DNA from: Lachnospiraceae bacterium AC2012
Lineage (GTDB): Bacteria > Bacillota > Clostridia > Lachnospirales > Lachnospiraceae
Length of the DNA stretch: 64,000 nucleotides
Direction of reading: 5' to 3'
NCBI GenBank assembly: GCA_000702525.1
Contig: JNIN01000001.1
Coordinates: 992,001-1,056,000, forward strand
Shown here: positions 8,526 through 13,260 of the stretch, piece after piece
Layout: every line of letters starts with the position of its first letter
Numbering within the stretch: the stretch's first letter is position 1
The notes under the pieces: model-generated
Databases searched by the model: none
Seen by the model: only the letters and a program-made list of their open reading frames with translations
Told to the model about the DNA's origin: nothing
Translations under genes and position numbers: made by a program

Positions 8526-9305
8526 TTACTCTACAAACTCAATTTCCAATTTGTATTCTGGACAAACACCTGAAACTGTAGGTTGATACAATTCCCAAAC
8601 TGTCATCTTTGCAAATTTATCTGCTCTATCTCTTTCATTCAATTCATCCAATTTATCTTCCATTCTTGATGTAGCCTCCGTCTGAATTTGAGCAAGCTGT
8701 TCTGGATTCATTGTAATATCTCCAAACGCAAGCCATCCCTTTTCCGTATCTTCGAATTCCATTTCTTCACTTGGAACATTTATTTTTCCACATTCACAAT
8801 GTGGTATTTTCATTGTAATTACCTTTTTTTCATTATCTATACTAAAATCTTCTTTTGATAGATTACTTAAATCTACAGTATATGTAGCGATTCCATTATA
8901 TGTAATCACCTGTGTCTTTGTGAACATCGACAAATTCGCTAATCCAGTATCTGTTAATGTAACCGCATCCGATATTTGAGCTTCATACACTTCTAACTTT
9001 TTTAATTGCGTCCTATCACCTAATATTGGATCAGAAAAATCTGCTGCTGTATATCCTAAAAAACCATTGTTTTCTATAACCATATCATGCTTTTCTGCCG
9101 GATCTTCGAACCCAAATTGTTCTTTAAAGTCTTGCCATGTATTATTAATCGAGAACTTAATATATGCGACTCCTCCAATTACCAATCCAACCGTAATAGC
9201 AAGCGACAATAAGCTATTTAATAGCTTTCCTTTTCTACTGCCTATTCTAGCCCCTTTCGATGCAGCTTTTTCAACCTTTTTTATTAACTCTTCTTCATCC
9301 ATCAT
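8526..9305 (-). CDS. DUF4230 domain protein, membrane anchored
   Basis: A 259-aa protein with a basic cytoplasmic N-terminus (about 30 residues), one membrane segment (SLAITVGLVIGGVAYI, about 33-49) and a large extracellular part. The stretch 'TQLKKLEVYEAQISDAVTLTD' followed by a beta-rich 'ITYNGIATYTVDLSNL' and an 'ITMKIPHCECGKINV' segment matches what I know as DUF4230, whose function is undefined. The start follows TTAAGGGGGT, an unusually G-rich ribosome site that is perfectly complementary to a candidate small RNA at 62.9 kb. A terminator (9364-9383) separates it from the lipoprotein gene upstream, so it is probably transcribed on its own. Confidence 0.75.
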   Translation of the reverse strand: MMDEEELIKKVEKAASKGARIGSRKGKLLNSLLSLAITVGLVIGGVAYIKFSINNTWQDFKEQFGFEDPAEKHDMVIENNGFLGYTAADFSDPILGDRTQLKKLEVYEAQISDAVTLTDTGLANLSMFTKTQVITYNGIATYTVDLSNLSKEDFSIDNEKKVITMKIPHCECGKINVPSEEMEFEDTEKGWLAFGDITMNPEQLAQIQTEATSRMEDKLDELNERDRADKFAKMTVWELYQPTVSGVCPEYKLEIEFVE

Positions 9306-9354
9306 TTTCGAGTACCCCCTTAAAATCTCATTTATAATTGTAACTTAATTATCA

Positions 9355-9384
9355 CAAAAAGAAAGGCCTCATCTCTGAGGCCTC
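9355..9384 (-). terminator. Terminator after the lipoprotein gene
   Basis: Perfect 8-bp stem AGGCCTCA (9364-9371) with TGAGGCCT (9376-9383), four-base loop, followed on the minus strand by CTTTCTTTTTG. It lies 15 bp beyond the lipoprotein stop. Confidence 0.85.
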
Positions 9385-9398
9385 AATTTCTTTTCTTT

Positions 9399-10301
9399 CT
9401 AATTTGTATAAGACAATGCTACTTCCGATAGTTTTTGACTGCATCTACTTGTTACATCCAAATAATAATTCAGATCTGCTTCCGTCATTTGATCTTGCTT
9501 AGAAGACCACGTATTTAACTCAGTGGCCATCTGAGAATACTGCGTCATATATGACGAATACTCATTTAGTAATGACATATCTGTTGGATTATTCTGATAT
9601 TTTTCCATGAAAGCAACGTATTCATCTACAAATGTTTCATACGAATCCAAAAATGCTTTTAAATCTGGATCTACCTCATCTTGAGAAGATGCATTATCAT
9701 TTGATACCACTGACGTATCAACAGAAACATCTCTTACAATATTTTCAAAGAAATCCAAATATGGCATATTTTGATCTTTAGAACAGTAAGACAACATTAC
9801 CATTGTTCCATAGTCTTTATTCAAGAGGAAATATGAATCTACATATATTTTTTCTGCATTATTATCCAATTCCGAATTAATTAACACTTTTGAATATTGG
9901 TCAGATTCATTGTATGATTGACTTGTCACATTAACCTCGTATCCTTTTTTTTCAAGACCTTTAGAATAATCATTTACCATTACTTGAACATCTTCGTCGG
10001 ACATATTACTTGCATTATATATATTATTAGTTCCATACGACAAATACAGCCATGTTTTTCTATTCTCTTCTTTATCTATATAATACGTTGCACTATTTCC
10101 ATCACTATTCACTTCTGAACTTGAAGGAAAATCAAAATTGAAACCTCCCAAATCCAGATGCTTCATCTCAATAGTAGATGTATCCACCAATTCACTTCTT
10201 ATTTCATTGGTATCTGTATTACTTTGTTCTTTACCCCCACATCCTGTCAAAGCTATCACTACAATGCAAAATAGCACGATTAATTGTACTCTTCGTTTCA
10301 T
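9399..10301 (-). CDS. Secreted lipoprotein of unknown function
   Basis: A 300-aa protein that I do not recognise. Its N-terminus is a clear lipoprotein signal: MKRR, a hydrophobic stretch and lipobox LTGC with Cys21. The mature protein begins with a Ser/Asn/Thr-rich linker (about 22-45). A folded part of about 150 residues containing 'YIDKEENRKTWLYLSYG' and a 'KVLINSELDNNAEKIYVDSYFLL' strand pair follows, resembling the psbP/MOG1-like folds of small Gram-positive lipoproteins only in general pattern. It ends in a helical acidic tail (YETFVDEYVAFMEKYQ and following) of the kind seen in DUF6591-like lipoproteins. It follows the Mor-like regulator by 20 bp and ends at a terminator, so those two genes form one unit. 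Confidence 0.75.
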   Translation of the reverse strand: MKRRVQLIVLFCIVVIALTGCGGKEQSNTDTNEIRSELVDTSTIEMKHLDLGGFNFDFPSSSEVNSDGNSATYYIDKEENRKTWLYLSYGTNNIYNASNMSDEDVQVMVNDYSKGLEKKGYEVNVTSQSYNESDQYSKVLINSELDNNAEKIYVDSYFLLNKDYGTMVMLSYCSKDQNMPYLDFFENIVRDVSVDTSVVSNDNASSQDEVDPDLKAFLDSYETFVDEYVAFMEKYQNNPTDMSLLNEYSSYMTQYSQMATELNTWSSKQDQMTEADLNYYLDVTSRCSQKLSEVALSYTN

Positions 10302-10321
10302 ATCGCATATCCCTCCATTTT

Positions 10322-10582
10322 TTATTCTAATTCCCTTACCTCTTTTAATATTTGCCGTATCCTTCGCTCAGATAATCCCATTTCCTTTGCAATTTCAGAA
10401 ACTGTCATATCATTTTGATGTTCGATTATATATTTCTGCGTATATTCCTTTGAAAACAATCTTTGTGGAAACGTCACATTTGTACCTGAAAATCTTTTCC
10501 ATATTTTCAAAATTTGAACATCATTTAGTATCTCTGCCAGTTCTCCATAAACTCCAGCATAACGTTTCGGATTGTTTTTCAA
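10322..10582 (-). CDS. Small Mor-family-like helix-turn-helix DNA-binding protein
   Basis: About 86 aa. The first half (YAGVYGELAEIL...W..F.GTNVTFPQRL) resembles the N-terminal dimerisation part of phage Mor/C activators. The second half is a compact HTH, with MTVSEIAKEMGLSERRIRQILKEV at the C-terminus. The open frame allows GTG at 10591, but that codon touches the AAAGGAGG ribosome site; TTG at 10582 stands 8 nt from it and is the better start. Mor-like proteins bind dyad-symmetric DNA as dimers, and the next non-coding block upstream (10891-11262) is an array of inverted motifs, which makes this protein a candidate ligand. That link is inferred. It is the first gene of a two-gene unit with the lipoprotein. 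Confidence 0.7.
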   Translation of the reverse strand: MKNNPKRYAGVYGELAEILNDVQILKIWKRFSGTNVTFPQRLFSKEYTQKYIIEHQNDMTVSEIAKEMGLSERRIRQILKEVRELE

Positions 10583-10724
10583 ATACTCCACCTCCTTTAA
10601 TTTTTGATTTTAATTCATTTATTTTGAAATTGTCCTCTGTTAATTGCATATGAAATTTTCATAACAAATTTCCAATTTCAAATCCTTTTCTCCTTTCATA
10701 TAAGCAGATGTAATTTTTGCGAAT
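10583..10724 (-). promoter_or_regulatory. 142-bp leader in front of the Mor-like gene
   Basis: Contains two ribosome-site-like tracts on the minus strand: AAAGGAGG just before the gene, and AAAGGAGAAAAGGA about 100 bp farther upstream, which could open a 13-codon leader peptide (TTG start, stop TAA). No convincing promoter or riboswitch was recognised; a weak TTCGCA-N17-TATGAA is possible. Confidence 0.3.
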
Positions 10725-10764
10725 GATATAAAAAAAGGGTCGTATGAAAAATTCATACGACCCT
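10725..10764 (-). terminator. Terminator at the downstream end of the non-coding block
   Basis: Perfect 13-bp stem AGGGTCGTATGAA (10736-10748) with its complement at 10752-10764, three-base loop, then TTTTTTATATC on the minus strand. No protein gene ends here on that strand. The terminator therefore either stops read-through from thiN (stop at 11906) or ends a separate transcript made from the 10.8-11.9 kb block. Confidence 0.85.
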
Positions 10765-10799
10765 AAACAACAACGTCACTACTAACTACTCATCTAATG

Positions 10800-10819
10800 A
10801 TTCAATTATAAAAATGTTC
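10800..10819. repeat. Direct repeat, copy 1, left border of the motif array
   Basis: Pattern ATTC-N-ATTATAAAAATG-N-TC. The second copy at 11306-11325 matches at 18 of 20 positions, including a 12-bp perfect core. The two copies lie 506 bp apart and bracket the array of inverted motifs. Confidence 0.75.
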
Positions 10820-10890
10820 GGTATGACACTGGTACACCTGATGCACAACTCTGATTGTTTTAGCGTGATTATCAACTAATTTTACACACT

Positions 10891-11262
10891 TTACAGAATA
10901 TATCCTTGTTTTTGAATTTCTTCTGTAAGCCAATTTTGTAATTTTCGTCAAATTACGGTAGAAATCCTGATTCAGTTACCATATACCGTAATGCTCTTAT
11001 TATTTTAAACAAGTTATATTGTCCTTTACAGAAGATCGCTACATTATATCTTCTTTTTCTGTAATTTGATAAACAGCTAAGAAGATTGCTTACAGAAAAC
11101 TTACCTTTTCAACTTGATATTCTGTAACCCAGAAAAATCCAGGATTTTTACTACGGTAAAAATAGAGTAACGAGCAAATTGTTCCGTAAAACAGCATATT
11201 GTTAAAAAATTTTAACCATGCATTTACGGAACAGGATTTGAAAACAAGTATGTATTCTGTAA
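10891..11262. repeat. Array of twelve 8-bp motifs in alternating orientation, helically phased
   Basis: The motif TTAC(A/G)G(A/T)A and its reverse complement alternate strictly along 372 bp. Starts are 10891, 10921, 10953, 10984, 11026, 11057, 11090, 11120, 11151, 11182, 11224 and 11255. The steps are 30, 32, 31, 42, 31, 33, 30, 31, 31, 42 and 31 bp, that is about three or four turns of DNA. Neighbouring partners often match each other exactly, including where the sequence departs from the commonest form (TTACGGTA at 10953 pairs with TACCGTAA at 10984; TTCCGTAA at 11182 pairs with TTACGGAA at 11224). Such compensated change points to either dimeric protein sites or tandem RNA hairpins. A GTTAAAA-AA-TTTTAAC palindrome sits in the centre of the second 42-bp gap (11201-11216). 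No protein is encoded here. It is not CRISPR, because the units are inverted and only 8 bp long. Confidence 0.8.
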
Positions 11263-11305
11263 ATCTAGCAAAGAACCTTATAAAAATCAGCAAAAAACCT
11301 AACTA

Positions 11306-11325
11306 ATTCCATTATAAAAATGGTC
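11306..11325. repeat. Direct repeat, copy 2, between motif array and giant palindrome
   Basis: Second copy of the ATTC-N-ATTATAAAAATG-N-TC repeat. Its last bases are also the first bases of the long inverted repeat (AATGGTCCAC). Confidence 0.75.
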
Positions 11326-11896
11326 CACTAACCCCGTTCCTCCGCCGTGGCCCTGCCGCCCTTGCCCCTTTGCCCGGATCTTCGCAAGAATATTGTATTT
11401 TTCCTATATGCAAAGACTCGCATCCTCGATTATCCTGTGTTTTTTGTAAGTCTGTACAGTTTCCCGGAACCGCTTTCACCGGACTGATATTCCTGTTCTT
11501 CGTTAAGACTTTCTGGGGACGGCAAAGCGTAGGTGAATAAAGTAAGCTTAGTAAAATAAAAACAGGTTTTGCGATGTATCGTCATGCGTCGCCATGGACG
11601 GCGACGCAAGTGGCACCTGAGACACGACGTTGAATGTGCCACGGTGACGATACATACAAAACCTGTTTTGTTATTTTACTTAGCGAACGACACTTGAACC
11701 TACGCTTTGCCGTACCCAGAAAGTCTAATAAAAAATTCCAAATATCTGTCCCGTGTAAAGCGGTTCCGGGAAACGGTTCATCCTGCAAAAAACACAGGAT
11801 CGATGCTCGCTTTTTGCATATGGAAAAATTACAATATTCGCAAAATGGATCCTGGCAAAGGGGCAAGGGCGGCAGGGCCACGGCGGGTGGACCATT
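11319..11896. repeat. 578-bp imperfect palindrome (giant hairpin) next to thiN
   Basis: Two arms of about 265 bp face each other. They begin with AATGGTCCAC at the left and end with its complement at the right. The best block is a 33-bp perfect match (11342-11374 with 11854-11886). Others are 17 bp (11460-11476 with 11757-11773) and 28 of 29 bp (11506-11534 with 11698-11726). By eye the arms are about 80 percent alike, with small bulges and one 13-bp insertion in the left arm. The apex is not a simple loop: it carries two local hairpins, GCGTCGCC/GGCGACGC (11586-11607) and GTGGCAC/GTGCCAC (11610-11642), making a three-way junction. The arm tips are markedly GC-rich compared with the array beside them. 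Short open frames in both directions follow the arm symmetry and are not believed to be genes. It may be a mobile palindromic element (MITE-like) or a structured RNA; the sequence alone does not decide. Confidence 0.85.
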
Positions 11897-11905
11897 CCAG
11901 GGCCA

Positions 11906-12589
11906 TTAGTCTCGGGCTTCGATCACCAATAGTGATCCCAGCTGCACACGAATCTTTGCTACGGTATCTACCAGTTCATTACTGATGCCGAGCGATGTAA
12001 AACTTGGGAGATCATAATCCTCTAATTCGTACTTTAAGCCCTCGAGCGTAACACCATAGGCAGTACCATTGACCGCTACGACAGAGATATACTGCCCAAA
12101 TTGTTTATCTCTACGGATAACCGCACAAGCCGGATGCTCTTCCGCTGTCAGCATATATACCTTATTATGCGGATCAATCATCCAGATTTTACGATTGTGC
12201 TCTGGGCCTTTGCCAAGAATCATCATATTTCCAAGAACATGATCGAGTCTTGTACCCGTACTTCCGACGAAATAAATATTTCCTGAGGATTCTTCAAATG
12301 CAATATTCAGGGCAGCCTCCGAATCTGTATCATCTTTCTCCGGATTCAGATAAGTAATCTGCGTATCCAGATTCTCCATCTCCTGCTTCTTCGCAGGCTC
12401 AATGGAATCAAAATCTCCAACAATATGATCTGGCACAATGCCAAGATCCAGACAACACTCCACGCCCTTATCTGCTGCGATTACATAACATGTTTCACCA
12501 TGCTTCTCTGCATGCAGTTTTGCCTCCTCATATTGTTCCTTTACAAATTCTCTGTCTGCGGCTCCGCCGCTTATAATAATTGCACTCAT
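11906..12589 (-). CDS. thiN: Thiamine pyrophosphokinase
   Basis: Transfers pyrophosphate from ATP to thiamine, giving the active cofactor TPP. The 227-aa length fits the family. Visible are the N-terminal nucleotide-sugar-like fold with CYVIAADKGVECC, the metal-binding GDFDS motif (about residues 68-72), the PEKDDTDSE active-site motif (about 92-100) and the GSTGTRLDH motif (about 120-128). The C-terminal beta domain carries LEGLKYEL, the usual substrate-binding stretch. It is the last gene of the long murE-thiN operon, 20 bp after rpe. A 578-bp palindrome starts 9 bp after its stop codon and so would form the 3' end of the operon message. Confidence 0.93.
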   Translation of the reverse strand: MSAIIISGGAADREFVKEQYEEAKLHAEKHGETCYVIAADKGVECCLDLGIVPDHIVGDFDSIEPAKKQEMENLDTQITYLNPEKDDTDSEAALNIAFEESSGNIYFVGSTGTRLDHVLGNMMILGKGPEHNRKIWMIDPHNKVYMLTAEEHPACAVIRRDKQFGQYISVVAVNGTAYGVTLEGLKYELEDYDLPSFTSLGISNELVDTVAKIRVQLGSLLVIEARD

Positions 12590-12609
12590 GTGACTATTTC
12601 CCCAAATCT

Positions 12610-13260
12610 TTATGCCATATGTTCTAAGAAGTCTGTTACGTTTTGTCCTGCGTCACCATTAAATACAGCGCTACCAGCTACAATAATATTGGCTCCAGCA
12701 TCTAAAACATCATCTACGTTATCCAGTGTAATTCCACCGTCCACTTCGATGTCTGTCTTCAATCCTTTACGCTCAATCATAGCCTTCAACTCGGCGATCT
12801 TATCCAGCGAATATGGGATAAACTTCTGTCCACCAAATCCAGGATTTACGGTCATCAGAAGCACCATATCGAGTTCCGGAAGGATATATTCAATCGCAGA
12901 AAGCGGTGTGGTAGGATTCAATGCAACTGCTGCAAGTACATTTTCCTCCTTGATCATATGAACCAATCGGTCGAGATGATTTGTCGCTTCCGCATGTACG
13001 GTAATAATATCTGCGCCTGCCTCCGCAAATTCATGAATATACTGCTCCGGATTATCAATCATCAAGTGTACATCCAAAATCTTCTCCGTATATTTACGAA
13101 GGGACTTAAGGACTGGAAGTCCAATGGAATAATTCGGAACAAAATGTCCATCCATGATATCGACATGGATATATTCTGCACCTGCTTCATCAACTTCCTG
13201 TACTGCTGCACCAAGCTGACCAAAATCAGCGGATAAGATGGATGGTGATAAACAATTCAT
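12610..13260 (-). CDS. rpe: Ribulose-phosphate 3-epimerase
   Basis: Interconverts ribulose 5-phosphate and xylulose 5-phosphate in the pentose phosphate pathway. The start at 13260 (MNCLSPSILSADF) is chosen over an upstream ATG because it matches the family N-terminus and follows GAGGGAG by 6 nt, giving 216 aa. TIM-barrel motifs are present: SPSILSADF, HVDIMDGHFVPNYSIG (metal-binding His and Asp), DVHLMIDNP, MTVNPGFGGQ and EVDGGI, plus a phosphate-binding VAGSAVF. It sits between rsgA and thiN, the common order in Firmicutes. Confidence 0.96.
   Translation of the reverse strand: MNCLSPSILSADFGQLGAAVQEVDEAGAEYIHVDIMDGHFVPNYSIGLPVLKSLRKYTEKILDVHLMIDNPEQYIHEFAEAGADIITVHAEATNHLDRLVHMIKEENVLAAVALNPTTPLSAIEYILPELDMVLLMTVNPGFGGQKFIPYSLDKIAELKAMIERKGLKTDIEVDGGITLDNVDDVLDAGANIIVAGSAVFNGDAGQNVTDFLEHMA

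Follow-up and report, generated by a model that had tools for sequence, protein, structure and literature searches.

A helix-phased array of alternating 8-bp sites in Lachnospiraceae bacterium AC2012, probably a gene-less relative of arrays that adjoin a family of PD-(D/E)XK-like proteins

What kind of element is a run of twelve short motifs, pointing alternately left and right at nearly regular steps, in the genome of Lachnospiraceae bacterium AC2012? The run occupies positions 10891-11262 of the window, the 64,000-nucleotide stretch of contig JNIN01000001.1 analyzed here. A first-pass annotation, made from the letters alone, had described twelve alternating motifs separated by 30-33 or 42 bp, and that description is confirmed: eleven sites match TTAC(A/G)G(A/T)A exactly and the twelfth, at 11151, carries one mismatch (CTACGGTA), all in strict alternation with steps of 30, 32, 31, 42, 31, 33, 30, 31, 31, 42 and 31 bp (Table 1). 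The window as a whole holds 25 exact matches to TTACRGWA (shuffle mean 6.55), 11 of them inside the array. A shuffled-sequence check disposes of chance, since 2,000 dinucleotide shuffles of 10800-11399 reached at most 2 sites per 380 bp against the 11 observed. The claim that the motifs face nearly one side of the helix also stands, as both orientations are coherent at 10.5 bp (R=0.81 for forward and 0.90 for reverse sites; a comparison with random steps of 25-47 bp gives p=0.0002). The annotation knew no named element of this build, and none was found in Pfam, NCBIfam, Rfam, or the open-access literature; an Rfam scan of 9000-13000 left the array itself unmatched, its sole match being TwoAYGGAY at 11536-11694, outside the array.

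Table 1. Sites, ends, and flanking repeats of the window array (positions in the 64,000-nucleotide window)
Feature	Position	Strand	Remark
Site 1, TTACAGAA	10891..10898	+	exact motif match
Site 2, TTACAGAA	10921..10928	-	exact motif match
Site 3, TTACGGTA	10953..10960	+	exact motif match
Site 4, TTACGGTA	10984..10991	-	exact motif match
Site 5, TTACAGAA	11026..11033	+	exact motif match
Site 6, TTACAGAA	11057..11064	-	exact motif match
Site 7, TTACAGAA	11090..11097	+	exact motif match
Site 8, TTACAGAA	11120..11127	-	exact motif match
Site 9, CTACGGTA	11151..11158	+	one mismatch; TTACGGTA in older copies L026-L028
Site 10, TTACGGAA	11182..11189	-	exact motif match
Site 11, TTACGGAA	11224..11231	+	exact motif match
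Site 12, TTACAGAA	11255..11262	-	exact motif match
Left terminal inverted repeat TTTACAGAATATATCCTTGTTTT, includes site 1	10890..10912	+	24 of 30 bases match right end
Right terminal inverted repeat, near-complement of left, includes site 12	11241..11263	-	30-bp end comparison
Dispersed repeat around array	10818..11309	+	92-93% to four longest copies; right limit read from alignment
ATTATAAAAATG, left member of 12-bp direct repeat	10805..10816		flanks window copy; candidate target duplication
ATTATAAAAATG, right member of 12-bp direct repeat	11311..11322		flanks window copy; candidate target duplication

The array is not a solitary feature. The AC2012 genome comprises two contigs, C1 (2065 kb) and C2 (485 kb), and searching it with the array region returned many copies; a three-motif pattern gave 71 matches against 0 for the reversed control, and these fall, as counted by hand, at 18 array places, 12 on C1 and 6 on C2. 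The window array is one member of a dispersed repeat, ten other copies of which are 89-95% identical to its DNA. Spacing is constant to about 1 bp in the window copy and 13 others, with single off-consensus sites in L017, L020, and L026. Among the 11 recent copies, variation affects 3 of 72 core columns, compared with 90 of 281 spacer columns (p=1.5e-7), and the older copies L026, L027, and L028 keep 97-99% of the core and 67-69% of the spacers; L026 can be aligned over the array alone, L027 and L028 from 38 bp before it. Because core and steps are kept while spacers diverge in old copies, the sites and their spacing are the conserved entity. Conservation of spacing in relatives, proposed earlier as a mark of function, is upheld across these copies and across the gene-linked arrays described below. 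The array DNA had no match in three same-genus genomes that are 77-83% complete. Terminal inverted repeats, a classical feature of MITEs, are present in the window array, and a possible sign of mobility among the copies is the 12-bp direct repeat at one of them, the window's.

Array copies sit in mosaics with other intergenic repeats, including the TwoAYGGAY palindrome and an element with ends AATGTCATTTAGATA. In the window, 11322-11893 forms an imperfect palindrome of 570 bp (z -24 for the single-strand DNA fold) whose tip is the Rfam TwoAYGGAY match; AC2012 has one more copy, 96% identical, together with partial ones, some next to array copies, so that these hairpins are a dispersed repeat in that genome. 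The AATGTCATTTAGATA ends lie at L017 3293, L018 3910/4568, L019 3914, L020 3195, L022 3724/4529, L023 3829, and L025 3893, and in L018 and L022 they are inverted at both sides, around array-bearing stretches of ~670-820 bp. The element with these ends resembles a MITE and carries some of the array copies. On the 3' side of the array, 8 of the 11 recent copies (L016, L017, and L020-L025) have a further long hairpin module, AATCATGGAGCGAACGCAGCTGTCAAGGG with its partner, which by reading is absent from the window copy, L018, and L019.

If sites and spacing are conserved, is the paired stem conserved as well? The first-pass annotation had pointed to base changes matched between partners and had taken the dyad or stem, rather than the letters, to be under selection. 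The matches are real in the window copy (10953/10984, sites 3 and 4; 11182/11224, sites 10 and 11), but they do not extend to its relatives: L016 and L026 lack the match at sites 3/4, and L026 and L028 lack it at sites 10/11. Even within the window, the R letter is unmatched in one of the six > < pairs and the W letter in one of six; in L016, L026, L027, and L028, 1-3 of 6 pairs are unmatched per R/W position. The RNA covariance check suggested for both strands gave no support, with RNAalifold on 7 of the 14 full copies returning terms of +0.58 on the + strand (6 of 105 pairs compensated) and +1.65 on the other (3 of 74). Given unmatched partners and lack of covariation on either strand, the stem is not the conserved thing and the proposed selection on it falls. 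The chain of RNA hairpins is likewise unsupported and was set aside on the same grounds, although the array has strong folding energy as RNA (z -8.2 for one strand and -7.2 for the other).

Arrays of the same build occur beyond AC2012. Among same-family genomes, the pattern was present in 3 of 397, counting AC2012 itself; G127, one of these three, has what seems to be a chance match. Across 84,980 species genomes, a scan yielded 22 stretches, of which 11 are titled Lachnospiraceae (genera or MAGs, among them Pseudobutyrivibrio, 'Butyrivibrio fibrisolvens 16/4', and Roseburia), 6 come from a single Clostridiales MAG (RGIG5941), and 5 lie elsewhere, four of these last being chance-like. The single matches L053, L058, L064, and L065 and the viral contig L071 were discarded as chance-like. 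In the better arrays the motifs again alternate, at steps near 31-32 bp and in RGIG5941 also 41, while the motif letters vary by genome, being TTACAGTA in RGIG5941 and mainly TTACGGAA in Pseudobutyrivibrio. Two species (L055 and L061) have a gene-less array within a common 393 bp at 94% identity, beyond which 40 bp more are common (L055 extends only ~480 bp rightward); this sharing suggests that gene-less arrays may move.

A protein partner for the array class is indicated by L060, L067, and L051, in which the array lies directly upstream of one common ORF; the other neighbor of L051 differs, and its stretch covers just 35 residues of the ORF. The family protein has ~265 residues in two domains, the C-terminal half being PD-(D/E)XK-nuclease-like. 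The linked ORF itself had no Pfam match above cut-off, no NCBIfam match, and no PDB match. Its final 115-140 residues match the C terminus of PADLOC PDC-S68 (E=5.7e-29). Across the PADLOC models the matched part of the family is limited to the C-terminal 90-140 residues, which for PDC-S68 fall at the end of profiles ~1200 positions long; the PDC-S68, PDC-S69, and HEAT_CxxC_PDDEXK models share this nuclease-like domain with the family, and the AC2012 homolog additionally matches HEAT_CxxC_PDDEXK. Eleven positions are invariant in 119 of 119 proteins (K160, E162, Y178, E179, D192, F193, E207, H208, G210, Y217, and E244 in L104 numbering), consistent with a kept nuclease center. For the N-terminal half, matches to DUF6788 were weak and below cut-off in 3 of 6 short queries (E 0.019-0.16), sequence searches of the PDB gave nothing convincing (one match at E=0.17, to an unrelated coiled protein), and AlphaFold models of two sequences, at a mean pLDDT of 46.5, were too poor for use.

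The family was found in 104 of 299 Lachnospiraceae genomes sampled (with at most 8 matches counted per genome) and in 42 of 291 genomes of a class-level sample, some through one half alone. Of ten array-bearing genomes tested (10 of the 22 pattern stretches, one per genome, with L063 and the four chance-like ones left out), eight carry the family; the two without it are those of L052 and L068, whose pattern matches have another build by reading and were set aside. A scan of viral contigs found no relative of the family protein, and in plasmids (7 records) and phages (3) the C-terminal part alone was matched, none reaching 80% query coverage.

How tightly are gene and array joined? Counts for 120 family genes indicate that the two go together, with the array mainly upstream. 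A repeated 7-mer within 600 bp was present upstream in 83 of 111 genes, downstream in 25 of 116, and in a control stretch 901-1500 bp downstream in 8 of 112 (p=5e-27); with 900-bp stretches, the figures are 83/112 upstream (leaving 29 genes without), 25/117 downstream, and 97/120 on either side. Thirteen further full-length genes, mostly from other families, had an upstream array by the same measure in 10 cases. An identical motif occurs on both sides of the gene in 9 of 80, at least one of which (L076, TGGAAAA) may be low complexity. In these counts, an array was scored when an exact 7-mer was more frequent than in any of 30 shuffles; arrays that have diverged escape this test, and some rows will be chance; as background, 4 of 63 window stretches pass, one of the four being the array. 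The gene sample is likewise not random, as it combines the best-scoring places (30 loci and 60 more) with the family genes of array-bearing genomes. A gene match was obtained for 122 of 123 loci, the exception being L051 with its 35 residues; L060 and L067 are the same places as L104 and L103 and were dropped from the 120-gene counts, though kept in the step-length table (n=109) and in the row-by-row array listing. The protein set A3 holds 54 of 114 eligible proteins, hand-picked and mostly with clear arrays.

Many gene-linked arrays come within 100 bp of the start of the gene, and the largest (L079) has up to 31 sites over ~800 bp. Of 107 arrays, 91 contain sites in both orientations; by exact 7-mer, alternation predominates in 51 of the 107 and a single direction in 28. 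Some are homogeneous tandem repeats (~51, 53, 62, or 72 bp), and others, the window's included, share the motif alone. Sites of the window class are found in this setting as well: TTACGGAA lies upstream of a family gene in L074, L103, L104, L105, and L106, with a count in L103 that merely equals the shuffle maximum, and the window's motif class together with similar steps was found beside a family gene in genomes of the Pseudobutyrivibrio group (L074, L104, L105, and L106). The steps of L074 (30, 33, 30, 66, 30, and 33) are close to those of the window array. A hairpin GTGGCGGCTCGCCAC with a T-rich tail precedes the array in three units of the Pseudobutyrivibrio group, L104, L074, and L105 (one base different in L105); it is perhaps the left edge of a unit or a terminator. 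As to genomic position, 23 of the 120 units lie directly 3' of guaA (9), rpsI (5), lysS (6), or tuf (3), in the same direction, the gene names being confirmed by NCBIfam for one locus each, and the motifs differ among units behind one and the same gene. Residence behind four essential genes is as compatible with a stable locus as with a mobile one.

Helical phasing is a property of the whole class. The commonest same-orientation step per array (n=109) falls at 51-54 bp in 36 arrays, 60-65 in 34, 71-75 in 15, and 83-86 in 5. For 46 representatives, one array per protein cluster, the best period among 8-14 bp was 10.5 bp with R=0.81, a value reached in 0 of 5,000 random draws. Steps of whole helical turns speak for a protein on double-stranded DNA. 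The suggestion that the window array is a multi-site platform for a dimeric DNA-binding protein gains indirect support here, from spacing kept in relatives and from these helical steps.

If a family protein reads the array beside its gene, which part of it does so? Motif sharing rises steeply with protein identity, from ~1% of pairs below 40% identity to five of six pairs at 70% or more. Among pairs with C-terminal identity of at least 80%, the motif is shared in 5 of 5 with N-terminal identity of at least 65%, in 1 of 3 at 50-65%, and in 0 of 9 at 35-50%. L105 and L113, for example, are 96% identical in the C-terminal half and 36% in the N-terminal half, with motifs TACGGAA and GGATGCA. All nine non-sharing pairs set L104, L105, and L106 against L111, L112, and L113, so they amount to one group contrast and essentially one natural domain swap. 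In the wider set of pairs with C-terminal identity of at least 0.55, both halves are more alike when the motif is shared (p=4e-7 and 3e-7), and that set therefore cannot separate the N-terminal from the C-terminal half. Judged from these comparisons, the motif changes with the protein, and the N-terminal half is probably the reader.

The window array has no family gene beside it, and is for that reason called an orphan. The one family gene found in AC2012 lies elsewhere, at C1:204996-205790, and its array uses the half-site G(T/C)ACAG(A/T)A with steps of 24/28, letters near the window's in another geometry; a 52-bp tandem repeat of 6.2 copies is visible upstream of this gene (L072 1062-1382). 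It was not retained as the certain cognate, because the half-site is close but the geometry different, and the search of AC2012 gave no family gene whose array carries exactly the window motif. The product of C1:204996-205790 may still recognize arrays of the window class, or the arrays may have outlived their true cognate gene, lost once they had spread. In RGIG5941, the orphan motif TTACAGTA is the array motif of none of four genes examined, out of five family matches.

The nearest known kind is the REP/BIME repeat with its RAYT, although both enzyme class and repeat type differ. REP/BIME systems are intergenic arrays of alternately oriented short motifs with dispersed copies, in which a gene lies beside its cognate repeat, gene and motif co-evolve, and gene-less copies are thought to be mobilized in trans (PMC2817692). 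On that account, alternating motifs, dispersed copies, a cognate gene, and gene-less copies are common to both. The RAYT is a tyrosine transposase, whereas the protein here is PD-(D/E)XK-like, and the Pfam matches listed (25 of 31 families, 54 members) include no transposase family. The REP unit is palindromic with compensated changes, whereas the 8-mer here is non-palindromic and partner changes are uncompensated; further distinguishing features of the present class are the helical phasing of its half-sites, an array located mostly to one side of the gene, and the number of arrays in AC2012, 18. TIGR-Tas loci also have short repeats in alternation, located upstream or downstream of a gene whose protein includes a nuclease, with letters that vary between loci, and they combine a Nop domain with dual-repeat units, 9-nt variable spacers, and 36-nt RNAs (PMC12045711). 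The likeness lies in the repeats, their nuclease-bearing neighbor, and the locus-specific letters. It ends at the unit, which in that description yields 36-nt RNAs, whereas the arrays here have steps near 52, 63, and 73 bp at whole helical turns; the window array family shows no covariation, and no Nop domain is among the Pfam matches listed for the same 25 of 31 families (54 members).

Regulatory proteins offer another comparison. Lrp-type and other multimers use sites about three turns apart and assemble as an oligomer on one face of the DNA. The arrays resemble these in having sites at whole helical turns, but the sites are 8-bp half-sites in alternating orientation, and no Lrp-like domain is among the Pfam matches listed for the linked protein. 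The array-gene system as such had no description that we could find in the open-access literature, subscription papers lying outside the scope of the search.

With somewhat better than even confidence, we read the window array as an orphan, gene-less member of the arrays that belong to the two-domain PD-(D/E)XK-like protein family. The array class appears to be a novel kind of selfish DNA, based on binding sites in phase with the helix. Protein dimers would bind neighboring half-sites on one helix face and so coat the array; gene and array would form one selfish unit; and gene-less arrays could be spread in trans by such a protein, by analogy with BIMEs and RAYTs. The window copy would then be a platform of sites and a passenger, rather than a control site of neighboring genes. 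A fuller version, possible but offered tentatively, is a new selfish single-gene element of Clostridia in which a modular protein acts on its own phased half-site array, is copied in a homing-like manner, and spreads gene-less arrays. In such a reading, cleavage-driven copying might place gene and array behind guaA, rpsI, lysS, and tuf, and the DNA-reading N-terminal half would be exchangeable while joined to a PD-(D/E)XK half.

Several other explanations deserve weighing against this orphan-array reading. Toxin-antitoxin and restriction controller proteins repress their own genes through upstream sites, and the nuclease-like protein could do the same through its array, orphans being decoys or relics that titrate it. 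The excess of arrays upstream (83/112 against 25/117 downstream), many within 100 bp of the gene start, is what such an operator would produce; we nevertheless think it unlikely, as the 31 sites over ~800 bp in L079 far exceed an operator, 9 of 80 genes have the motif downstream too (L076 perhaps through low complexity), and AC2012 has 18 array places for one related gene. It is distinctly improbable that the array is a nucleoid, partition, or origin-like platform co-opted by the host and bound by an unrelated host protein. Retention of the motif in old copies and the presence of copies on both replicons, C1 and C2, would suit that role, but the motif class recurs with similar steps upstream of a nuclease-like gene in other genera, three same-genus genomes (77-83% complete) have no array match, and ten copies at 89-95% identity behave like a spreading repeat; for an origin or partition site in particular, dispersed and gene-linked copies argue against a replicon-specific element. 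The chance that the array is the binding platform of the Mor-like protein encoded at 10322-10591, as first proposed, is close to negligible. That gene adjoins the array and encodes an HTH protein (Sigma70_r4, HTH_Mga, and Mor above cut-off), but with no second homolog in the AC2012 genome it accompanies only 1 of 18 arrays, and the proteins linked to the array class are of a different family.

Two further alternatives concern what the array DNA does, if anything. An RNA-level element, whether a hairpin chain or a guide-RNA array of CRISPR or TIGR-like type, seems very unlikely. Strong folding on either strand speaks for it, as do arrays beside a nuclease, which at first sight recall TIGR loci, and the mutually dissimilar 14 bp beside the sites in 63 of 95 arrays, a trait expected of variable spacers (mean identity under 0.45, in a measure that mixes both flanks). 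Against these stand the unsupported covariation and unmatched partner letters, steps in multiples of 10.5 bp that RNA would not need, several arrays (L084, L132, L142, L146, and L192) made up of simple tandem repeats that lack variable spacers, and the Nop domain and 36-nt guides that TIGR-Tas requires (PMC12045711). A guide-RNA array was rejected because the inter-motif sequence had no phage or plasmid source, the best phage match being at E=0.1 and plasmids giving none at E up to 1. Slighter still is the case for a neutral passenger, in which the array would simply fill the interior of ordinary MITEs bounded by AATGTCATTTAGATA and have no binding role. L018 and L022 do lie between inverted AATGTCATTTAGA ends, and one such end is present at L017, L019, L020, L023, and L025, but the motif core is kept while spacers diverge, and in older copies the alignment extends little beyond the array.

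Should the orphan-array reading and its protein partner be borne out, the specificity code of the family would be readable from sequence and open to direct test, as the target is written beside most genes. The N-terminal halves would constitute a natural library of sequence readers, each labeled by its adjoining array, and REP/RAYT would gain a nuclease-based parallel among the systems that generate intergenic repeats in bacteria.

A few observations at the margins of the family may be recorded. ORFs of ~100 aa that match just the N-terminal half of the family protein occur at L213-L220; a repeated 7-mer lies beside 1 of the 8 (L213, 5 against 4 in shuffles), with no regular steps, and such stand-alone proteins were dismissed as array owners at these eight loci. 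G642, a 1.9-Mb genome outside Lachnospiraceae, has 11 family matches, some of them pieces of one gene, and no regular array was seen at two of its loci (L225 and L226); it is a possible array-less branch of the family. In L052, positions 1319-1487 hold repeated TTACGGAA at multiples of 10-11 bp beside a NikA/MobC-like gene and a relaxase gene, and these repeats are probably an oriT-type site of another kind.
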